Shown here one piece after another: positions 27,783 to 37,134 of a stretch of DNA of 64,000 nucleotides. Made by a program: the position numbers and the translations under genes. The stretch is taken from the NCBI GenBank assembly GCA_947489085.1, contig CANLCJ010000025.1, forward strand, positions 1 through 64,000, given 5' to 3'. The DNA comes from an uncultured Flavobacteriaceae bacterium. Lineage in GTDB: Bacteria > Bacteroidota > Bacteroidia > Flavobacteriales > Flavobacteriaceae. Positions within the stretch are counted from its first letter, which is position 1; every line of letters starts with the position of its first letter. The notes beneath the pieces were generated by a model that had not been told where the DNA came from, ran no database searches, and was given only the letters and a program-made list of their open reading frames with translations.

Positions 27783-30700
27783 ATGGCTCTAAAAGTAGTG
27801 ATTTCGCACAAAACTGTTTATAAATACGATCGCAATGTAAATTTGTCTCCTCATATTTTTCGTTTACGTCCTGCACCACACAGTAGAACTCCTATCGAGG
27901 CTTATTCGTTAACTATAAAACCAGAAAACCATTTCTTTAACTGGCAGCAAGATCCTTTTGGAAACTACCAGGCAAGAGTTGTTTTTCCAGAAAAAACAAA
28001 TGAACTTTCTATTGATGTAGAGATTGTTGCCGATTTAAAAACTATTAATCCTTTCGATTTTTTTATAGACGACACAGCAGACGAGTTTCCTTTTGACTAT
28101 GAAGATCACATCAAAAAAGAGTTAGGCCCTTATCTCGAAGTAGAATACCAAGACCCCTTAATCGATGCTTTTATTGAAACCATTGATTACACCCCTAGAA
28201 AAACCATTTATTTTTTAATAGACCTCAATAGAAAAATATACGAGTATTTAAATTACAACATTCGTTTAGAACCCGGCGTACAAACACCACAAAAAACGTT
28301 AGAGTGCAAATCTGGGTCTTGTAGAGATTATGCTTGGTTATTTGTACAAGTGCTGCGCCAACTTGGTTTTGCAGCGCGTTTTGTATCTGGATATATTGTG
28401 CAATTAAAGCAAGATGAACTTTCTTTAGATGGGCCTTCTGGCCCTGCTAACGATTTTACAGATTTACATGCTTGGACAGAAGTATATGTTCCAGGTGCTG
28501 GTTGGATTGGTTTAGACTCCACTTCGGGATTGCTTACGGGAGAAGGACACATACCACTTGCCTGCACCCCACACTACGAAAGTGCTGCTGCGGTAACAGG
28601 CCTATCCGATCCTTGCGAAACAGAGTTTGATTTTAGCAATTCTGTAACCAGAATTTTAGAGTCTCCCAGAGTAACTAAACCCTATACCGACGAGCAATGG
28701 AAAGCCATTAATAGACTTGGCCAAAAGGTGGAACGCGATTTACAAAAAGGAGATGTTAGGCTTACCATGGGTGGAGAACCTACATTTGTATCTATAGACG
28801 ATATGGAGGCGCCTGAATGGAATACTGATGCTGATGGGCCACACAAACGCAAATTGGCTAACGATTTAACCAAACGTTTATTACATAAAATTGCTCCGGG
28901 CGGCATGCTGCATCATGCCCAAGGAAAGTGGTATCCCGGCGAACCTCTACCAAGATGGGAAATCCAATTGTATTGGAGAAAAGATGGTAAAAAAATATGG
29001 CATAACGAGCATTTACTTTCTGCCTTTTCGCCTAATCCTATTGTTGCTCCCGGAAGCGATATTTTATTTTTACAAACACTTAGCACCTATTTAGGCGTAT
29101 CTCAAACTTATATTTTACCTGCTTACGAAGATGCATTTTACATGTTATGGGAACAAGATAACTTGCCTGTAGACATAGACCTCTCTAAAGAAGGCAGCGA
29201 AGACTTAGTAAAAAAACGACTTGCCGAAATACAAGAACAAGGTACACATAAAGCTGTAGGATATGTGCTGCCTTTAAACAAATCTGGAGATGAGTGGTTC
29301 TCTAGTACTTGGCTTTTTAGAAGACACCAACTACTACTTACACCGGGCACCTCGCCTTTAGGTTTAAGATTACCTTTAGCTAGCTTGGCCACAAAACCAG
29401 AGTATGGCGTGTTTCCAGTATACGAACCCGATTTGTTTAAAAAGCGTAAGCAGTTACCAAGTTTTAAGCGCTTGGTAAATGTTCGGCACAAATCGATTGT
29501 TACCAACGGTTTAAACACTAATAAACCAAAATACTTTGTAAAAACAGCTATTAGTGCAGAAATTAGAGAAGGTAAACTCTATCTGTTTCTACCTCCCTTA
29601 GATGGTATGGATGCTTTTTTGGATTTAATAGCCTCTATAGAAGCTACTGCAAAACAGCTCAACATCCCCGTTATTCTTGAAGGGTACAACCCACCTCACG
29701 ACAACCGTGTTGAGTCTATGAAAATTACACCAGATCCAGGTGTTATTGAAGTAAATGTACACCCTACCACCAATTGGGACGATTTGGTAAACAATACATT
29801 TACACTTTACGATGAAGCCAAAAAATCGCGATTAGGTACAGAAAAATTTATGCTAGATGGCAAGCACACAGGTACAGGAGGTGGAAACCACGTGACCTTG
29901 GGAGGCACTACACCCGCAGACAGCCCACTCTTGCGCAAGCCCAGCTTATTACGAAGCCTACTCACATTTTGGCAGCACCATCCTGGACTTTCCTATTTAT
30001 TTTCTGGAGCTTTTGTTGGCGCTACCAGCCAAGCGCCCAGAATAGACGAAGCCAGAATGGAAAACTTGTACGAGTTGGAAATTGCCTTTAGTCAAATTCC
30101 AAAAGATGGAGAGGTGCCTTTTTGGCTTACAGACCGTTTATTTAGGCACTTACTAACCGATTTAACAGGAAATACCCACCGTGCAGAATTTTGTATCGAT
30201 AAATTGTATTCGCCAGATTCTTCCTCTGGTAGACTTGGTATTTTAGAACTAAGAGGTTTCGACATGCCACCGCATGCAAAAATGAGCTTAGTGCAAATGC
30301 TATTGGTACGTACATTAGTGGCTTGGTTTTGGAAAAAACCTTACGAGCACGACTTGGTGCGTTGGGGTACAGAATTGCACGATAAGTTTTTAATAGAACA
30401 CTACGTTCGTGAAGACATAAAAGACATTGTAAAACAGCTTAACAGAGCTGGTTATAAATTTCAAGAAGACTGGTTCGATCCCTTTTTCGAATTTAGATTC
30501 CCGCTACATGGCATGGTAGATATTAATAATATTCATTTAGAATTAAGAGCAGCCATAGAACCTTGGAATGTTTTAGGTGAAGAAATGACTGGCGGTGGTA
30601 CAGCCCGCTATGTAGATTCTTCTCTAGAACGCCTACAGGTTAAAGTTTCCAACTTTACAAGCGAAAGGTACGTGCTTACATGTAATGGGGTAAAAATACA

Positions 30701-31118
30701 ATTGCAACCCACAGGTACAAAAGGCGAATATGTAGCTGGGGTAAAATACAAAGCATGGGACCCGCATTCTGCCTTACACCCTACCATAGGTGTAGATACA
30801 CCTTTAGCCTTCGATATTGTAGACACTTGGAACCGCAAGTCTATAGGTGGCTGCAAATATTTTGTAGCTCACCCCGGCGGGCGTTCTTACGACACTTTTC
30901 CTGTGAATAGCTACGAAGCCGAATCGAGACGTATAAATCGATTTTGGGATATTGGTGAAACGCAAACCGAAGTTGACATTATTGAAGAAGTAAGCGCAAG
31001 CGATACTAACGCCCCGCTAAGAACCGTTGAAGAAATAGGCAGTAAACGCAAATACAGATATAAAACAATACCTGTAGATCCAGAATTTCCAAACACACTA
31101 GATCTACGTAAAAAATAA
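27783..31118 (+). CDS. Transglutaminase-like/DUF2126 fusion protein
   Basis: 1111 residues. The first 100 residues are the 'bacterial transglutaminase-like N-terminal' beta region (VVISHKTVYKYDRNVNLSPH). Next is a papain-fold transglutaminase-like domain with the full triad: Cys180 in GSCRDYAWLFVQ, His229 in DLHAWTEVYVP and Asp245 in WIGLDSTSG. From about residue 300 the rest is DUF2126, with motifs such as RLTMGGEPTFVSIDD and GGGNHVTLGG that suggest a second catalytic module. This architecture recurs in bacteria next to circularly permuted ATP-grasp and alpha-E proteins, and comparative genomics predicts peptide ligation or protein modification. It is cytosolic. It is the first gene of an operon, 12 bases before the ATP-grasp/alpha-E gene. 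Confidence 0.88.
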   Translation: MALKVVISHKTVYKYDRNVNLSPHIFRLRPAPHSRTPIEAYSLTIKPENHFFNWQQDPFGNYQARVVFPEKTNELSIDVEIVADLKTINPFDFFIDDTADEFPFDYEDHIKKELGPYLEVEYQDPLIDAFIETIDYTPRKTIYFLIDLNRKIYEYLNYNIRLEPGVQTPQKTLECKSGSCRDYAWLFVQVLRQLGFAARFVSGYIVQLKQDELSLDGPSGPANDFTDLHAWTEVYVPGAGWIGLDSTSGLLTGEGHIPLACTPHYESAAAVTGLSDPCETEFDFSNSVTRILESPRVTKPYTDEQWKAINRLGQKVERDLQKGDVRLTMGGEPTFVSIDDMEAPEWNTDADGPHKRKLANDLTKRLLHKIAPGGMLHHAQGKWYPGEPLPRWEIQLYWRKDGKKIWHNEHLLSAFSPNPIVAPGSDILFLQTLSTYLGVSQTYILPAYEDAFYMLWEQDNLPVDIDLSKEGSEDLVKKRLAEIQEQGTHKAVGYVLPLNKSGDEWFSSTWLFRRHQLLLTPGTSPLGLRLPLASLATKPEYGVFPVYEPDLFKKRKQLPSFKRLVNVRHKSIVTNGLNTNKPKYFVKTAISAEIREGKLYLFLPPLDGMDAFLDLIASIEATAKQLNIPVILEGYNPPHDNRVESMKITPDPGVIEVNVHPTTNWDDLVNNTFTLYDEAKKSRLGTEKFMLDGKHTGTGGGNHVTLGGTTPADSPLLRKPSLLRSLLTFWQHHPGLSYLFSGAFVGATSQAPRIDEARMENLYELEIAFSQIPKDGEVPFWLTDRLFRHLLTDLTGNTHRAEFCIDKLYSPDSSSGRLGILELRGFDMPPHAKMSLVQMLLVRTLVAWFWKKPYEHDLVRWGTELHDKFLIEHYVREDIKDIVKQLNRAGYKFQEDWFDPFFEFRFPLHGMVDINNIHLELRAAIEPWNVLGEEMTGGGTARYVDSSLERLQVKVSNFTSERYVLTCNGVKIQLQPTGTKGEYVAGVKYKAWDPHSALHPTIGVDTPLAFDIVDTWNRKSIGGCKYFVAHPGGRSYDTFPVNSYEAESRRINRFWDIGETQTEVDIIEEVSASDTNAPLRTVEEIGSKRKYRYKTIPVDPEFPNTLDLRKK

Positions 31119-31130
31119 ACACAGTTAAAA

Positions 31131-33686
31131 ATGGAAGCTAAAACAGCCTCGTTAATAGAACACTACTCTCATATTGATGCTTACGACGAAATGTTTAAAG
31201 AAGACATGACGTTAAGAGACACGTGGAAAAAAGTTTACCATAATTTTGAAACATTAGGACACAATGAAATAATTTCCAGACAAAAAGACATTGATTGGAA
31301 TTTATCTGAAAATGGAACAACCTATAATATTTACAACGACCCCAATGGCCAAAACAGACCTTGGAATTTAAATATTTTCCCTTTCGTAATGCACAAAAAG
31401 GAATGGGATGATGTTGAAAAAGGTTTGCAACAACGTGTGCATTTACTCGATTTGGTTGTTAAGGATATTTATGGGGAAAGACAACTCTTAAAAAAAGGCA
31501 TTATACCTCAAGAGGTTATTTTTGGACACAGAGGTTTTTTAAGACAATGCGATGGTATAGAGAGTTCAACAAAGCAACACTTATCTGTGTATGCCGCAGA
31601 TTTATCTAGAGGGCCTGATGGACGTATGTGGATGGTTAATGATAGAGTTCAAGCACCTTCTGGGATGGGCTATGCGCTAGAAAACAGAACCATAACCAGT
31701 AATGTTTTACCAAATCTTTACAAAGACCTATCTGTTGTAGATCAATACGATTTTTTTAACACCTTTAATCAATTATTGATAGACGCAGCGCCAAACAAAA
31801 TTCTAAATCCCAATATTGTAGTATTAACTCCTGGCCCTTCGAGCGAGTCTTATTTCGAGCATTCGTATCTGGCTAATTACTATGGTTACCCTCTTGTTAG
31901 AGGTAACGATCTATTAGTTAGAGATGGGAAACTATGGATGAAATCTCTAAAAGGCCTAAAGCAAGTAAACGTGGTTTACAGAAGAGTCGAAGATATGTTT
32001 ATAGACCCTCTAGAACTAAGAGAAGATTCTTATTTAGGCGTAGCTGGTTTGCTCGATGTGGTGCGACGTAAAAATGTTAGCATACTTAACCCTGTTGGTG
32101 TGGGCGTTATTGAAAACCCTGGACTTATTCCTTTTATGCCTGCTATTGCCAAGTATTTTTTAGACGAGGAACTTATATTGCCGCAAATCGCGACTTGGTG
32201 GTGTGGCCAAAAAAAGGAATTGGATCATGTTATGGCCAATATCTCCAAATTGGTAATTAAACGTATAGACCGTTCTAGTAGAGAAACCATTGTTTTTGGA
32301 GAACTGCTTGACGCTACAGAGTTGGAAGCTTTAAAGCAAAAAATTAAAAGTCGTCCACACCTATATGTGGCACAAGAGAGGATAAAGTTTTCTACCGTTC
32401 CCAACTTTACCGATGGTAAATTAGAACCTAGAAACATGATATGTAGAGCTTTTGCCATAGCAGATAAAGCAGCTTACAAAATAATGCCTGGTGGTCTTGT
32501 TAGAGTTTCTTCAACCTCAAAAACATTTAAAGTAAACGAACAGCGCGGAGGTACAAGTAAAGACTTTTGTGTTATTGACGAAAACTACGTAAAAACTGTA
32601 AAGCCAAAATATTGCAAAATTACCACTACTGGTTTAACAAAGTTAAACGACTTGCCGAGTTTAACCGCAGAAAATCTGTACTGGGCAGGCAGGTACGCCA
32701 GTAGAGCCCTAGTACTAAGTAGGCATTTAAGAATGGTTTTAAAAGAAGTGTCTAAAACAGACCTTTCCAGTACCTTCCAAAAGCACTCTAAAATAGATTA
32801 TTTATTAAATACAGTTACGGAGCTTACAAATGTTAGCCCTGGCTTTTCTACAAGTAAAAATGTAGACTCTCCAGACGCTATTAAAAAAGAGCTTATTGCC
32901 ATTGTGGTAGACAAAAATAAAGCTGGCAGTTTAGCGAGCACCTTGTCGCTTTTTAGCAATTCCTTTTATGCTATAAGAAATCTAGCATCCACAGACATGT
33001 GGCGTGTTTTAGACAGCATGCAAAAATTATGGCATCCCATAACAGAAGAAGATCAAACCAAACTGTCTTACAAAAGACTGATTAAAATTCTAGATCAATT
33101 GATAACAAAGCTTATCGCTTTTATGGGGCTTATAGAAGAAAGCATACTTGTAGAACAAGGCCTTTTACTGTATTTTATTGGCTTAAACCTAGAACGTGCT
33201 ATGTTAAACACTACAATATTTCAAAATATGCTTATTGGTGTGGAAGAAGACCATGTGCAATACGAAATATTAGAAGCACTCTTACATAGCCACGAAAGCT
33301 TAAATATTTACCGTTACAGCTACCGTTCTCATATCAATATAGAATCTGTATTGTCTCTAATTATGTTGAACACCAAATATGCGCGTTCTCTCACGTTTTT
33401 AGTAGGCAGACTAAAAAAGGATATTGGATACTTGCCACACTCTAAAACCACTAGCGATCTTCAAGATTACGAAAAGGGTATTTTTGAGGCTTACTCTAAA
33501 TTAAGGCTATCGAATACGGAGTACCTTTCTGAAATTTCTGGTACAGATTTACCTATTAGAGCACATTTAAAAACCTTTTTAGATATGTTACAAGTATTGT
33601 TTTTAGAAACTTCGAAATCTATATCAGACACTTACTTTAATCACAGTAAAGGCCACACCCAACTTACGTCCCAAAAATTTAGTTAA
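31131..33686 (+). CDS. Circularly permuted ATP-grasp protein fused to an alpha-E domain
   Basis: 851 residues. Residues 1 to about 480 form the circularly permuted type 2 ATP-grasp ligase (DRVQAPSGMGYALENRTITS, VVYRRVEDMFIDPLELR, and the closing GGLVRVSSTSKTF...RGGTSKDF region). Residues about 520-851 are an alpha-helical alpha-E domain starting at ENLYWAGRYASRALVLSRHL. The usual state is two separate genes, as in the convergent operon at 34.7-37.1 kb, so this is a fusion. The ATP-grasp part should activate a carboxylate as acyl phosphate and join it to an amine; the substrate is unknown. It is three bases upstream of the next transglutaminase gene. Confidence 0.88.
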   Translation: MEAKTASLIEHYSHIDAYDEMFKEDMTLRDTWKKVYHNFETLGHNEIISRQKDIDWNLSENGTTYNIYNDPNGQNRPWNLNIFPFVMHKKEWDDVEKGLQQRVHLLDLVVKDIYGERQLLKKGIIPQEVIFGHRGFLRQCDGIESSTKQHLSVYAADLSRGPDGRMWMVNDRVQAPSGMGYALENRTITSNVLPNLYKDLSVVDQYDFFNTFNQLLIDAAPNKILNPNIVVLTPGPSSESYFEHSYLANYYGYPLVRGNDLLVRDGKLWMKSLKGLKQVNVVYRRVEDMFIDPLELREDSYLGVAGLLDVVRRKNVSILNPVGVGVIENPGLIPFMPAIAKYFLDEELILPQIATWWCGQKKELDHVMANISKLVIKRIDRSSRETIVFGELLDATELEALKQKIKSRPHLYVAQERIKFSTVPNFTDGKLEPRNMICRAFAIADKAAYKIMPGGLVRVSSTSKTFKVNEQRGGTSKDFCVIDENYVKTVKPKYCKITTTGLTKLNDLPSLTAENLYWAGRYASRALVLSRHLRMVLKEVSKTDLSSTFQKHSKIDYLLNTVTELTNVSPGFSTSKNVDSPDAIKKELIAIVVDKNKAGSLASTLSLFSNSFYAIRNLASTDMWRVLDSMQKLWHPITEEDQTKLSYKRLIKILDQLITKLIAFMGLIEESILVEQGLLLYFIGLNLERAMLNTTIFQNMLIGVEEDHVQYEILEALLHSHESLNIYRYSYRSHINIESVLSLIMLNTKYARSLTFLVGRLKKDIGYLPHSKTTSDLQDYEKGIFEAYSKLRLSNTEYLSEISGTDLPIRAHLKTFLDMLQVLFLETSKSISDTYFNHSKGHTQLTSQKFS

Positions 33687-33689
33687 GCC

Positions 33690-34580
33690 ATGAATTTTCA
33701 AATTACGCATACTACAGAATACACGTATACAGATCCTGTAGTTTTTTGCCATAACATAGCAACCATTAAACCCAGAACATCTTTGGGTCAAGAACTTTTA
33801 GATTACACTATCGATATCAACCCAGAACCCACTCAAATTTCTGAACGGATCGATTTTTTTGGAAATAACATTACACGCTTCACCATACAAAAGCAACACA
33901 AAAAACTATCTGTAACTTCTAAAAGTAAGATTACCAGAAATTATACAGAGGTTAAAGAACGTTTCTTTTCTAAAGCGTGTACAGATGTAACGCTGGAGCA
34001 AGCTTTAGAGCTTTTAAATGCCAATAACGAAAATACGTTTACACCAAAACAATTTATCTTGGACTCTATTTTAATAAGAAACACAAAATCTAATATTAAA
34101 GCTTATGCGTTGGAGTCGTTTAAACCCAAACGTTCGGTATTCGAAGCTACCAACGAGTTAATGCAGCGTATTTTTACAGATTTTAAATTCGTTTCTGGCT
34201 TTACAAATGTTTCCACGCCTTTAAGTGTGGTTATGGAAGAAAAAAAGGGCGTGTGCCAAGATTTTGCACAAATAGCTATAGCTTGCTTAAGAAGTATAGG
34301 ACTTCCTGGCCGCTATATTAGTGGTTATATTGAAACTTTACCACCTCCCGGAAAACCCAAACTTATAGGTGCAGACGCTTCTCATGCTTGGTTTGCTGTG
34401 TTTATCCCTGGTTTTGGTTGGGTAGATTTCGATCCTACTAATAATAAGATTCCAGAAAACCAACATATTGTAGTCGGCTGGGGAAGAGACTATTACGATG
34501 TTCCGCCTTTAAAAGGTGTGGTGTACAGTTCTGGTAGTAGCAGTTTAAAAGTGTCTGTAGATATCAGGTCTATAGAGTAA
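33690..34580 (+). CDS. Transglutaminase family protein
   Basis: 296 residues. The N-terminal beta region (MNFQITHTTEYTYTDPVVFC) precedes the papain-like fold with Cys189 in KGVCQDFAQIAI, His232 in ASHAWFAVFIPGFGW and Asp246 or Asp248 in VDFDPTNN. Such proteins may act as cysteine peptidases, amidases or amide-forming enzymes; which applies here is open. It ends the operon with the transglutaminase-DUF2126 and ATP-grasp/alpha-E genes. The spacing of three bases suggests translational coupling. Its 3' end converges on the second, split ATP-grasp/alpha-E operon. Confidence 0.9.
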   Translation: MNFQITHTTEYTYTDPVVFCHNIATIKPRTSLGQELLDYTIDINPEPTQISERIDFFGNNITRFTIQKQHKKLSVTSKSKITRNYTEVKERFFSKACTDVTLEQALELLNANNENTFTPKQFILDSILIRNTKSNIKAYALESFKPKRSVFEATNELMQRIFTDFKFVSGFTNVSTPLSVVMEEKKGVCQDFAQIAIACLRSIGLPGRYISGYIETLPPPGKPKLIGADASHAWFAVFIPGFGWVDFDPTNNKIPENQHIVVGWGRDYYDVPPLKGVVYSSGSSSLKVSVDIRSIE

Positions 34581-34622
34581 TGTAAAACAGCTAAGACCAA
34601 CCCTAAGCACACACATTACATT

Positions 34623-34712
34623 TTATTGTTGCTGTTGCTGCGCCTGCTGCAACGCCTCCATATCTGTATCTGTTGTTGTTCTGTTTTGTGTTTGCTGTTG
34701 TTCTAATGCCAT
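34623..34712 (-). CDS. Putative 29-residue Gln-rich peptide, third gene of the ATP-grasp/alpha-E operon
   Basis: The alpha-E stop TAA, one A and then ATG give TAAAATG, the spacing of a translationally coupled gene. The frame starts MALEQQQTQNR, continues through Thr/Asp residues, and closes with LQQAQQQQQ and a TAA stop. There are 12 or more glutamines in 29 residues and no Cys, signal peptide or membrane segment. It is in a different frame from the alpha-E gene, so it is not its simple extension. Because the neighbours are an ATP-grasp ligase and (convergently) transglutaminase-like enzymes, it could be the peptide substrate. It could also be a chance frame in CAG/CAA-rich DNA or a frameshifted tail. 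I do not recognise the family. Confidence 0.45.
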   Translation of the reverse strand: MALEQQQTQNRTTTDTDMEALQQAQQQQQ

Positions 34713-34713
34713 T

Positions 34714-35667
34714 TTAATCTATATAAAAAAACTCTTTCTCCATTTTTTTACTAATCATAAATAAACTTTCCAAAATTGTTTCTATAAACGTTCTAAAATC
34801 CACCTCAATCTCCTCAGTATATTTATACTGGTATTCTGCATACAATTTATTTACCAGAAAAGCTGTAGAATGCTTAGATGGCTTTTTCTCGTGGGATAGT
34901 GCGTCGATATGTCTGGAAATTTCACTTAAACTATTTACTACAGATCTGGGACACTTTGGGTTTAATATAAGAAATTCTAAAGTATTGTAACTATTGGCTA
35001 CTCCTCTCTCGTAGCGTTTCATCATGTCGTAAGACTCTACACAGCGTAAAAGGGTAGACCATTCCAGTGCTGGAGACACCATAAAACCTTCAGAACGCTT
35101 TAATTCTATGGCTTGTATGTCTATATATTTAGAATGAATAATACCTATTACTTGAGTGGCTCTTTCCATGTTAACACCTAGCTTAATTACCGAAAATACT
35201 TCGTCGAAAAGCAAAGTTGTTCTAATTTTAGCTTTGGTTATGGCTGCAAATTCCATTACGTTAGACGTAAACTCATAAAGCCCCTTTTTAACTAAAAAAT
35301 CTGGAGAATAGTTGAGTACAAAATGGTAAAACTTATTGATGGCTTCGTATAACTCTGTAGATATTATATCTCTAGCACTGTTCGCGTTTTCTCGTGCCAT
35401 TTTAATACAATTTATTATAGAGTATTCCTTGTCTGGATTTAGCCCTATGTTGTAAAGCACATCTGCCTCGTCTAAATCTTTGTTTGATGTGTTAGGCGCA
35501 CCTACCATAAACATTAAAGACTTTAACACGAATTGGCGTGATTGCGATAGTTCGTGAGGCGCATCTAGAGATGAAAAATAATTCACTCTTAAATACCTTG
35601 CAATATGTTCGGAACGTTCTATATACCTGCCCATCCAAAACAGGTTGTTGGCTACTCTTGCTAGCAT
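34714..35667 (-). CDS. Alpha-E domain-containing protein
   Basis: 317 residues, all helical, the normal stand-alone size. It starts MLARVANNLFWMGRYIERSE, the conserved signature of the family, and contains MERATQVIGIIHSKYIDIQ and NPKCPRSVVNSLSEIS. Its role is unknown, but it is nearly always paired with the circularly permuted ATP-grasp ligase and is thought to form a complex or carry its substrate. It begins six bases after that gene's stop. It is only distantly similar to the alpha-E half of the fused protein on the other strand, so the two systems are not recent duplicates. Confidence 0.9.
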   Translation of the reverse strand: MLARVANNLFWMGRYIERSEHIARYLRVNYFSSLDAPHELSQSRQFVLKSLMFMVGAPNTSNKDLDEADVLYNIGLNPDKEYSIINCIKMARENANSARDIISTELYEAINKFYHFVLNYSPDFLVKKGLYEFTSNVMEFAAITKAKIRTTLLFDEVFSVIKLGVNMERATQVIGIIHSKYIDIQAIELKRSEGFMVSPALEWSTLLRCVESYDMMKRYERGVANSYNTLEFLILNPKCPRSVVNSLSEISRHIDALSHEKKPSKHSTAFLVNKLYAEYQYKYTEEIEVDFRTFIETILESLFMISKKMEKEFFYID

Positions 35668-35673
35668 ATTCTT

Positions 35674-37134
35674 TTACTTTTTTAACACCCAAGTATCTTT
35701 CGATCCTCCTCCTTGAGATGAATTTACAATTAAATTTCCTCGTCTTAAAGCTACTCGCGTTAAACCACTTTTTAAAACATAACTTTTATCCTTACCTAAT
35801 AGCGTAAACGTTCGTAAATCGACATGTCTTGGCTCGAAAGATTTTTCACTTTCTATATAAGTGGCATGCACGGATAAAGACATTATAGGTTGTGCGATAT
35901 ATTTTCTTGGATGTTTTAAAATAGTTTGTTTTACCTCTTCAATTTCTTGGGGACTTAACTTATTGCCTATGGAAATACCATAGCCTCCAGCTTCGTCTAC
36001 CGGCTTAATAACCAAATCTTTTATATTATTTAAAACAAATTCTAAATCTTTAGCATCGCTACAATGGTAGGTATGCACATTTTTTAGTATTGGTGTTTCG
36101 TTTAAGTAGTATTTAATAATTTTTGGCATATAGGTATAAATGGCTTTATCATCTGCAACTCCTGTGCCTGGCGCATTTACCAAACATACATTGCCTTTTT
36201 TGTAGGCCGCAAATAAACCTTTAACGCCTAACATCGATTCTGGATTAAACACATCAGGATCTATAAACCCATCGTCTATACGTCTGTAAATTACATCTAC
36301 GCGTTCTGGACCATTTATAGTTCGCATATACACAAAATGGTTCTCTACAAATAAATCTCTTCCTTCTACCAGCTCTATACCCATACCTTTTGCCAAGTAA
36401 GAGTGTTCGTAGTACGCCGAATTAAACACGCCTGGTGTAAGCACCACACAGGTTGGTTTATCTACACCTTTTGGCTTTACGCTTTCGAGAATTTCTAACA
36501 GATTTTCAGAATAATCGGTTACAGTGTGTATTTTGTATTTATCGAATACACCAAATAACGCCCGCTTTAAGGTAGTACGGTTACAAATAACATAGCTAAC
36601 CCCAGATGGACACCTTATGTTATCTTCTAACACATAGTAGTTACCGTCTGAGTGTTTTATTAAGTCTGTTCCAGATATGTGATTGTAAATACCGCCTGGA
36701 GGCGTAAAGCCTTGCATTTGTTTTAAGTAATTCTCGGAAGACTCTATGAGTGTTTTAGGCACGATGCCATCTTTAATAATGTTTTGCTCGTGGTACAAAT
36801 CGTGTAAAAACAGATTTAAAGCTTTGCTTCTTTGCAATACGCCTTTCTCTATATGTTCCCACTCCTCATGGTCTATAATTCTTGGAAATAAATCGAAAGG
36901 AAAAATTTTCTCTTTTGTTTCGTTATTTCCGTAAACTTGAAATGTAATCCCTTGATTAAAAAAAGATGTTTTTGCATATTCATTTAACGCCTCAAAATCC
37001 ATGATGCTGTGGCTGCTGTATAAGGCGAATAACTTCTTATAAATTTCTTTTACGCTTTTATCATCATTAAATACTTCGTCTAAAGTGTTTTCATCGAAAG
37101 TGTAAGAAGAAAATATTGTTTGGTTTTTATGCAT
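35674..37134 (-). CDS. Circularly permuted type 2 ATP-grasp protein
   Basis: 486 residues, the usual size of the separate form. Motifs match the fused homologue on the other strand: EDNIRCPSGVSYVICNRTTL, VDVIYRRIDDGFIDPDVF, GTGVADDKAIYTYMPKI, and near the end GLTRVALRRG with SSQGGGSKDTWVL. These include the acidic and Lys/Arg residues expected to hold ATP and magnesium. It should form an amide or ester bond through an acyl phosphate; substrate unknown. It is the first gene of the minus-strand operon, followed by alpha-E and the Gln-rich frame. No clear TAnnTTTG box was found in front. Confidence 0.9.
   Translation of the reverse strand: MHKNQTIFSSYTFDENTLDEVFNDDKSVKEIYKKLFALYSSHSIMDFEALNEYAKTSFFNQGITFQVYGNNETKEKIFPFDLFPRIIDHEEWEHIEKGVLQRSKALNLFLHDLYHEQNIIKDGIVPKTLIESSENYLKQMQGFTPPGGIYNHISGTDLIKHSDGNYYVLEDNIRCPSGVSYVICNRTTLKRALFGVFDKYKIHTVTDYSENLLEILESVKPKGVDKPTCVVLTPGVFNSAYYEHSYLAKGMGIELVEGRDLFVENHFVYMRTINGPERVDVIYRRIDDGFIDPDVFNPESMLGVKGLFAAYKKGNVCLVNAPGTGVADDKAIYTYMPKIIKYYLNETPILKNVHTYHCSDAKDLEFVLNNIKDLVIKPVDEAGGYGISIGNKLSPQEIEEVKQTILKHPRKYIAQPIMSLSVHATYIESEKSFEPRHVDLRTFTLLGKDKSYVLKSGLTRVALRRGNLIVNSSQGGGSKDTWVLKK

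Follow-up and report, generated by a model that had tools for sequence, protein, structure and literature searches.

A 29-codon mini-gene after alpha-E encodes a glutamine tail of the kind that related ATP-grasp/alpha-E/transglutaminase operons carry on their own proteins

In an uncultured member of the Flavobacteriaceae, a glutamine-rich frame of 29 codons follows the alpha-E gene of an ATP-grasp/alpha-E operon, raising the question whether so short a frame is a gene and, if so, what its product may do in this system. The operon is spread over several phyla and has been predicted to synthesise peptides or to attach tags (Iyer et al. 2009, via PMC5666114, PMC6376114), for which the consulted parts of these two papers name no known substrate. 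The excerpt of PMC5666114, a study of Anbu, states that peptide synthesis becomes a less likely role in view of its own results. An initial annotation had suggested that the frame is coupled to alpha-E and could encode the missing substrate. The window, i.e., the whole stretch of 64,000 nucleotides that was analysed, contains the following features around the frame:

27783–31118, plus strand: transglutaminase-DUF2126 (putative amidoligase) protein, 1111 aa; Pfam PF08379, PF01841, PF09899
31131–33686, plus strand: fused ATP-grasp/Alpha-E protein of the convergent operon, 851 aa; Pfam PF14403 and PF04168
33690–34580, plus strand: convergent transglutaminase TG2, 296 aa; Pfam PF08379/PF01841; GVCQDF, HAW and DPT motifs
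34623–34712, minus strand: 29-codon mini-gene (glutamine-tail peptide); open reading frame, present in 8/8 window-type loci, codon evidence
34626–34649, minus strand: QQAQQQQQ C-terminal tail, the conserved part of the mini-gene; glutamine run with mixed CAA/CAG codons
34714–35667, minus strand: alpha-E protein, 317 aa; Pfam PF04168, E 1.8e-63
35674–37134, minus strand: circularly permuted ATP-grasp protein, 486 aa; Pfam PF14403, E 1.9e-157; PDB 3n6x, E 4.4e-154

The ATP-grasp and alpha-E genes, 6 bases apart, represent the core pair of the operon (Pfam PF14403 and PF04168). The mini-gene is the final gene on this minus strand and is followed by the convergent TG2, whose three motifs presumably provide the Cys, His and Asp of the triad. 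No same-strand transglutaminase follows alpha-E in the window, and the peptide occupies that place. Both ATP-grasp proteins of the window were assigned to CP_ATPgrasp_2 by Pfam, and the nearest solved relative of the separate one, 3n6x, is labelled a putative glutathionylspermidine synthase; for alpha-E, profile searching up to E 1 yielded no PDB relative. The five operon proteins and a TG1, the transglutaminase of related operons described below, received no name from NCBIfam. PADLOC gave no matches for the same five proteins, on which ground a defence system was rejected.

The predicted product of the mini-gene, MALEQQQTQNRTTTDTDMEALQQAQQQQQ, comprises 29 residues, 11 of them glutamine, lacks cysteine and is closed by a TAA stop of its own, which agrees with its first description. 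The alpha-E stop (34714–34716) and the ATG of the mini-gene (34710–34712) are separated by one base (TAAAATG). Simple mononucleotide shuffles of this frame and its seven counterparts in related loci never produced at least five glutamines in the last six codons before the stop (0/5000 for each of the eight). In the genome of origin (3.65 Mb, 135 contigs), DNA encoding QQQQ followed by TAA or TAG occurs five times, and only at the mini-gene does it end a frame of at least 8 codons with an ATG, GTG or TTG start. The peptide had no Pfam matches. No promoter-like or terminator-like site was found at 34500–34900 and the RNA fold at 34560–34760 was not unusual (z -0.76); as the mini-gene is also the last on its strand, a role as regulatory RNA or leader peptide is therefore unsupported.

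To place the frame among relatives, loci were gathered by means of the alpha-E protein from 60 genomes, including the genome of origin, and 12 genomes of the genus, and further alpha-E relatives were taken from the best 80 of 208 genome-contig loci and from 397 genomes of the family, a subset of a larger group. Alpha-E of the window type, 72–85% identical to that of the window, was found in L018–L023 and L099. Loci with identical peptides were taken as the same (L002/L018, L098/L021, L100/L022, L101/L023), giving eight distinct loci including the window. All eight have a frame of 26–29 codons ended by a glutamine run after alpha-E, and all eight products, 26–29 residues in length, end in glutamine; examples are MKEALQQHQKVSEENSESIRQQQAQQQQQ (L019, Aquimarina), MNESRMQSICVTDANEELINQQQQQQQ (L021, Algibacter) and the 28-residue peptide of Maribacter vaceletii (L023). 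The expectation that the frame is conserved in relatives was thus borne out, although its tight coupling to alpha-E is a feature of the window, as the distance from the alpha-E stop to the peptide start ranges from -1 to +73 with differing relative frames. Similarly, the absence of cysteine holds for the window, but the L021 peptide contains a Cys. The L020 peptide has a TTG start and is separated from TG2 by about 1.1 kb; this insert contains a frame of 137 aa (L020:5199-5612), whose product may be a PIN-type protein.

A scan of L001–L097 and the window for frames of 15–120 codons with at least four glutamines in the last six matched window-type loci only, and no separate glutamine-ended frame accompanies alpha-E in any of the 74 loci L024–L097 (among the best 80 of 208), so that the short frame belongs to the window type and not to alpha-E genes at large. 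A profile of seven peptides (threshold E <1e-6) matched 5 of the 397 family genomes at E 8.2e-7 or better, four of which are in the training set, leaving G178 (E 2.9e-8) as the one independent match; the same five genomes carry window-type alpha-E (E 1e-135 or better). The next-best match in the family genomes had E 0.0055 and lay inside a 713-codon frame, and 395 genomes of the order yielded the window's own peptide and one weak match (E 0.006, inside an 894-codon frame). Across the genomes searched, the peptide goes with window-type alpha-E.

A comparison of synonymous with non-synonymous change, as had been proposed at the outset, indicated selection on the protein: pS was 0.83 and pN 0.36 with all pairs pooled, and 0.77 and 0.46 when anchored at the C-terminus without gaps. 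Counted by sites, the values were pS 0.77 and pN 0.17 for L021/L099 and pS 0.94 and pN 0.22 for L021/L022. The part ahead of the glutamine run is looser (pS 0.67, pN 0.47; pN/pS 0.70), and the window peptide belongs to the most divergent members of the set of eight (pN 0.39–0.48 to the others). In the last eight codons, pairwise differences at codon positions 1/2/3 numbered 48/40/125. Over the eight frames, glutamine is encoded by 48 CAA and 28 CAG codons in mixed order, which disfavours a simple DNA repeat. The peptide is under protein-level constraint, but far less so than alpha-E, since the latter gave 0.69 for synonymous and 0.06 for non-synonymous change between L021 and L022.

Two readings that would deny the frame the status of a separate gene were rejected. 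That it is a chance or neutral low-complexity frame between convergent genes is very unlikely: it is short, its window copy has diverged more than most and the part ahead of the glutamine run is weakly constrained, but all eight loci keep its place and glutamine end despite changed spacing, length and linker, its glutamine codons are mixed, and no other frame of 15–120 codons ended by a glutamine run occurs in the 74 other loci. The locus scan, the background frames described below and the codon tests all speak against a chance frame or DNA repeat. Even less credible, to the point of being negligible, is a C-terminal extension of alpha-E reached by frameshift or readthrough. The window frame does begin just one base past the alpha-E stop, but the varying spacing and relative frames rule this out, and in 8/8 loci alpha-E stops 1–3 residues after a conserved EFFY; the frame is distinct from a continuation of alpha-E in the relatives, as the initial annotation supposed. 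The mini-gene is a genuine, tiny and overlooked gene.

A wider setting for the peptide emerged from related operons. In L024–L097, which belong to the best 80 of 208 loci, alpha-E is followed on its own strand by a transglutaminase, TG1, in 72 of 74 cases; L041 and L094 have no transglutaminase call at this place. Within this set from the best 80 of 208, TG1 ends in glutamine in 68/72 and in Gln-Gln in 59/72 cases, 54/72 have at least three glutamines in the last ten residues, and alpha-E never ends in glutamine (0/74). Background counts were taken from the other frames of at least 200 codons in the loci collected, with duplicates dropped and some of them maybe not genes; of these 179, four ended in glutamine, none in Gln-Gln and one had at least three glutamines in the last ten residues. 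The linkers ahead of the glutamine run vary strongly by family (...NSYQQYMEAMQQQQQQ, ...DHQQQQQQQQ, ...HDIQQAQQQQ) and the final run of the transglutaminases comprises 1 to 9 glutamines. The transglutaminase of L004, which is not a copy, ends in QDQQ. The remaining four of the 72 TG1 proteins (L077, L080, L084, L088; Leeuwenhoekiella) have a long glutamine-rich stretch followed by 9–13 other residues.

TG1 was absent from all six window-type genomes covered by the test, the two Aquimarina genomes lying outside it, and the Ulvibacterium TG1 used as query had no matches other than TG2 and the DUF2126 protein. In Ulvibacterium itself (L045, L073), ATP-grasp, alpha-E and TG1 (...SEQQQ) are followed by a convergent TG2; in the regions L045:4459-7503 and L073:4459-7518, a window-like convergent layout is seen with the QQQ-tailed TG1 retained. 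The window TG2 is 65–69% identical to that of Ulvibacterium, and 35–41% identical to flavobacterial TG1 (L037, L045, L073) over about half its length. Judged by these identities, TG2 is not the missing TG1, and the layout of L045 and L073 is likely the ancestral one. In a quick alpha-E tree, with a midpoint root for drawing only, the eight window-type proteins form one clade (SH-aLRT 100) within the flavobacterial group, adjoining Galbibacter L095 (joining branch 92), whose TG1 ends in QQ. As TG1 is absent and Ulvibacterium keeps both TG1 and a matching TG2, TG1 was most likely lost in the window clade, where the peptide now occupies its position. Ahead of the glutamine run, the peptide gave no clear match to TG1.

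The tail is also found on other proteins. Of 198 genomes from the phylum, 78 were matched in a search for alpha-E (PF04168), and the loci read were 30 that were returned (L113–L142) and 40 chosen with flanks (L143–L182), 12 of them shared. In family f30 (L117–L142 without L122 and L131, and L177–L182), the glutamine run sits on alpha-E itself (...NWSQSQQQQQ). Here, alpha-E ends in glutamine in 21/23 and the transglutaminase in 0/24 cases; the exceptions L121 and L124 have the run just ahead of extra residues, and L132, with an internal run, was set aside from the alpha-E count for its length. Among L143–L182, 18 of the 36 transglutaminases seen end in glutamine. Among the rest, several alpha-E proteins have a glutamine-rich end (L165 TQSQSQS, L172 SQNQDQ, L173 QQTQ, L176 FQQMDQ). 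In three loci of family f19 (L157, L160, L164), no transglutaminase was seen, and alpha-E is followed by an Anbu-like protein with the terminal residues LQQ, VDQ and LQQ, respectively.

The carriers were mapped onto an alpha-E tree with 143 rows, counting as a strict tail at least three glutamines in the last 12 residues or a final QQ. By this rule, the tail is on the transglutaminase in 90 rows, alpha-E in 11, the peptide in 8, Anbu in 2, ATP-grasp in 2 and both Anbu and transglutaminase in 1, with none in 29. With rows lacking a tail left out, seven carrier changes were obtained at face value and four without L188, L169 and L196, as the Anbu tail of L188 is false and the ATP-grasp ends of the other two are doubtful; among transglutaminase, alpha-E and peptide alone there were at least three, and four with Anbu. 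The glutamine tail has switched its carrier. The tree was built without L001–L004, L015–L017, L098–L112 (save L099), most of L113–L142, L177, L179–L182, L189–L193 and frames outside 250–450 aa such as L197. The 29 rows lacking a strict tail comprise 11 with a single glutamine on one component, two with Gln-Glu, four with an interrupted or internal glutamine run (L077, L178, L183, L195), six with no transglutaminase seen (L006, L014, L041, L094, L170, L199) and six with no glutamine tail on the components seen (L161, L167, L168, L171, L174, L186). Glutamine runs followed by other residues were found in L013, L077, L080, L084, L088, L124, L132, L178 (the same as L121) and Tsukamurella L195, and carriers ending in Gln-Glu in L166, L169 and L184.

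Outside the phylum, in a small and uneven sample with many unannotated plasmid records whose protein ends are based on open reading frames, transglutaminases of plasmid records end in GQQQ (Aeromonas caviae, L188), VRQQQ (Limimaricola, L200), SQQAQQQ (Klebsiella pneumoniae, L214), QMQSQSQS (Rhizobium, L198) and QQGQSQAQN (Sinorhizobium, L187, L218). Operon transglutaminases of Paracoccus (L197, L213) end in a single glutamine, and Azospirillum L194 has a glutamine-rich end on alpha-E (TQSQSQ). Agrobacterium L199 has such an end on no component seen, and Burkholderia arboris L215, Acinetobacter L216, Paenibacillus L186 and Deinococcus L184 (ARQE) are misfits.

The tail is thus conserved and moves between carriers. 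If the body of TG1 could be lost in the window clade while the tail was kept as a gene, and if alpha-E carries the tail elsewhere, the tail would have a function of its own. Somewhat favoured by these data is the reading that the mini-gene is the free-standing form of a glutamine tail that is required by the ATP-grasp/alpha-E/transglutaminase system, its most likely role being that of a substrate of this system. Elsewhere the tail would be fused to an operon protein, usually the TG1 after alpha-E and sometimes alpha-E; an ancestor of the window clade would have lost TG1 and kept, or re-made, the tail as a peptide of 26–29 residues, and the convergent TG2 may replace the lost TG1 activity. Glutathionylspermidine synthase-like enzymes couple an amine to a carboxylate that they have activated. 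Because 3n6x-like enzymes join amine to carboxylate, the tail may serve as an in-house carboxylate or glutamine substrate of the operon: ATP-grasp and alpha-E would activate the tail carboxylate, i.e., the C-terminal glutamine or a glutamate derived from it, and join an amine, and the transglutaminase would act on the glutamine side chains or on the ligation product. A strict need for a C-terminal glutamine carboxylate is disfavoured, since some glutamine runs precede other residues. The substrate proposed in the initial annotation thereby gains indirect support from the presence of a glutamine tail in most related operons read, but the detached form is lineage-specific: the peptide is not universal, because most alpha-E loci carry the tail on the transglutaminase and others on alpha-E. 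More tentatively, the system in general may act on its own glutamine tail, be it on transglutaminase, alpha-E, perhaps Anbu or ATP-grasp, or on a free peptide, the tail being a built-in substrate or tag handled by a Pup-like logic of Gln-to-Glu conversion, activation and ligation, with the window clade as the first free-standing form.

The main rival assigns the tail a role in binding instead of chemistry. A flexible glutamine tail, itself unmodified, might hold operon proteins together or regulate the ATP-grasp enzyme, a possibility of some weight that we nevertheless regard as unlikely. Tail length and linker vary widely while glutamine-richness stays, and internal glutamine runs (L013, L077, L080, L084, L088, L178) would fit binding better than chemistry at the end; however, a free peptide of 29 residues tethers nothing by itself, and the exact glutamine end of 68/72 TG1 proteins (L024–L097, among the best 80 of 208) would be needless for a loose tether. 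It is improbable that the tail serves as a primer that the ATP-grasp enzyme lengthens with amino acids. The C-terminus of RpsF is extended with Glu by the ATP-grasp ligase RimK (as described in the consulted part of PMC12239564), and a final run of 1 to 9 glutamines is what a primer could show, but the CP_ATPgrasp_2 family differs from the ATP-grasp family of RimK. The boldest rival, likewise improbable, is a Pup-like tag, in which the transglutaminase deamidates the terminal glutamine and the ATP-grasp or DUF2126 enzyme ligates the resulting glutamate to proteins. Tagging by the operon has been proposed earlier (PMC6376114, in part), the short peptides end in glutamine in 8/8 cases and a few carriers have a Gln-Glu end. 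In contrast, the proteasome homologue Anbu was found in 0/6 window-type genomes tested, with 4/4 control genomes known to have it being recovered; a tail fused to an enzyme, as in most loci read, would be a poor tag, and the excerpt of PMC6376114 reports that neither a specific interaction of Anbu with the other proteins of the operon nor an Anbu peptidase activity was detected.

The reading as an in-house substrate can be set beside known systems. The locus shares with the ATP-grasp/alpha-E/transglutaminase (Anbu) operon the circularly permuted ATP-grasp beside alpha-E and the nearby transglutaminases, and differs from it in that no same-strand transglutaminase or Anbu was found in the window clade, which has a separate glutamine-tail peptide; Anbu is part of the operon in only some members. 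The consulted parts of PMC5666114 and PMC6376114 make no reference to a glutamine tail. Pup, a short protein, ends in Gln or, in many species, in Glu; Dop deamidates it and PafA ligates it (PMC12288473, in the part consulted). The peptide resembles it as a short Gln/Glu-ended protein, by itself a weak criterion, with carboxylate-amine ligase families nearby; however, the Pfam matches of the five operon proteins include neither PafA nor Dop, no Anbu was found, and in most cases enzymes carry the tail as a fused part. With RimK and ribosomal protein S6, the locus has in common an ATP-grasp ligase that would work on a C-terminal tail of repeated residues, but there the ATP-grasp family is another one, the residue is Glu instead of Gln and the tail belongs to a ribosomal protein. 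Graspetide precursors (RiPPs) are likewise small peptides encoded adjoining an ATP-grasp gene. Their core contains Ser, Thr or Lys together with Asp or Glu for side-chain rings, and their ATP-grasp ligase is RimK-like; the glutamine run of the window, in contrast, lacks acidic residues and such a ring core, and its ATP-grasp proteins belong to CP_ATPgrasp_2. The operon is thus known, but the detached tail and the recurring glutamine tail were not found described in the literature searched, which covered titles and the openings of abstracts, a scope outside which Iyer et al. (2009) lies.

A glutamine tail with a constant place in the operon but changing carriers represents a direct and testable substrate candidate. 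C-terminal affinity tags on operon proteins may mask a functional end; in co-expression of the Yersinia Anbu operon, a C-terminal FLAG tag was placed on the transglutaminase (PMC6376114, in the part consulted).

Further glutamine-containing ends were observed in the convergent operon. TG2 has such tails in four window-type loci (GQFQTQ, L020:5692-6639; VQSQSQ, L021:4626-5549; SSQETIQ, L022:4620-5543; MNQSQSQ, L023:4595-5521) and lacks them in the window, L018, L019 and Ulvibacterium L045/L073. The C-terminus of the ATP-grasp/alpha-E fusion has a conserved glutamine-containing motif of approximately QxQLTxQxFS (33640–33686 in the window; also L018, L019, L022 and L023).
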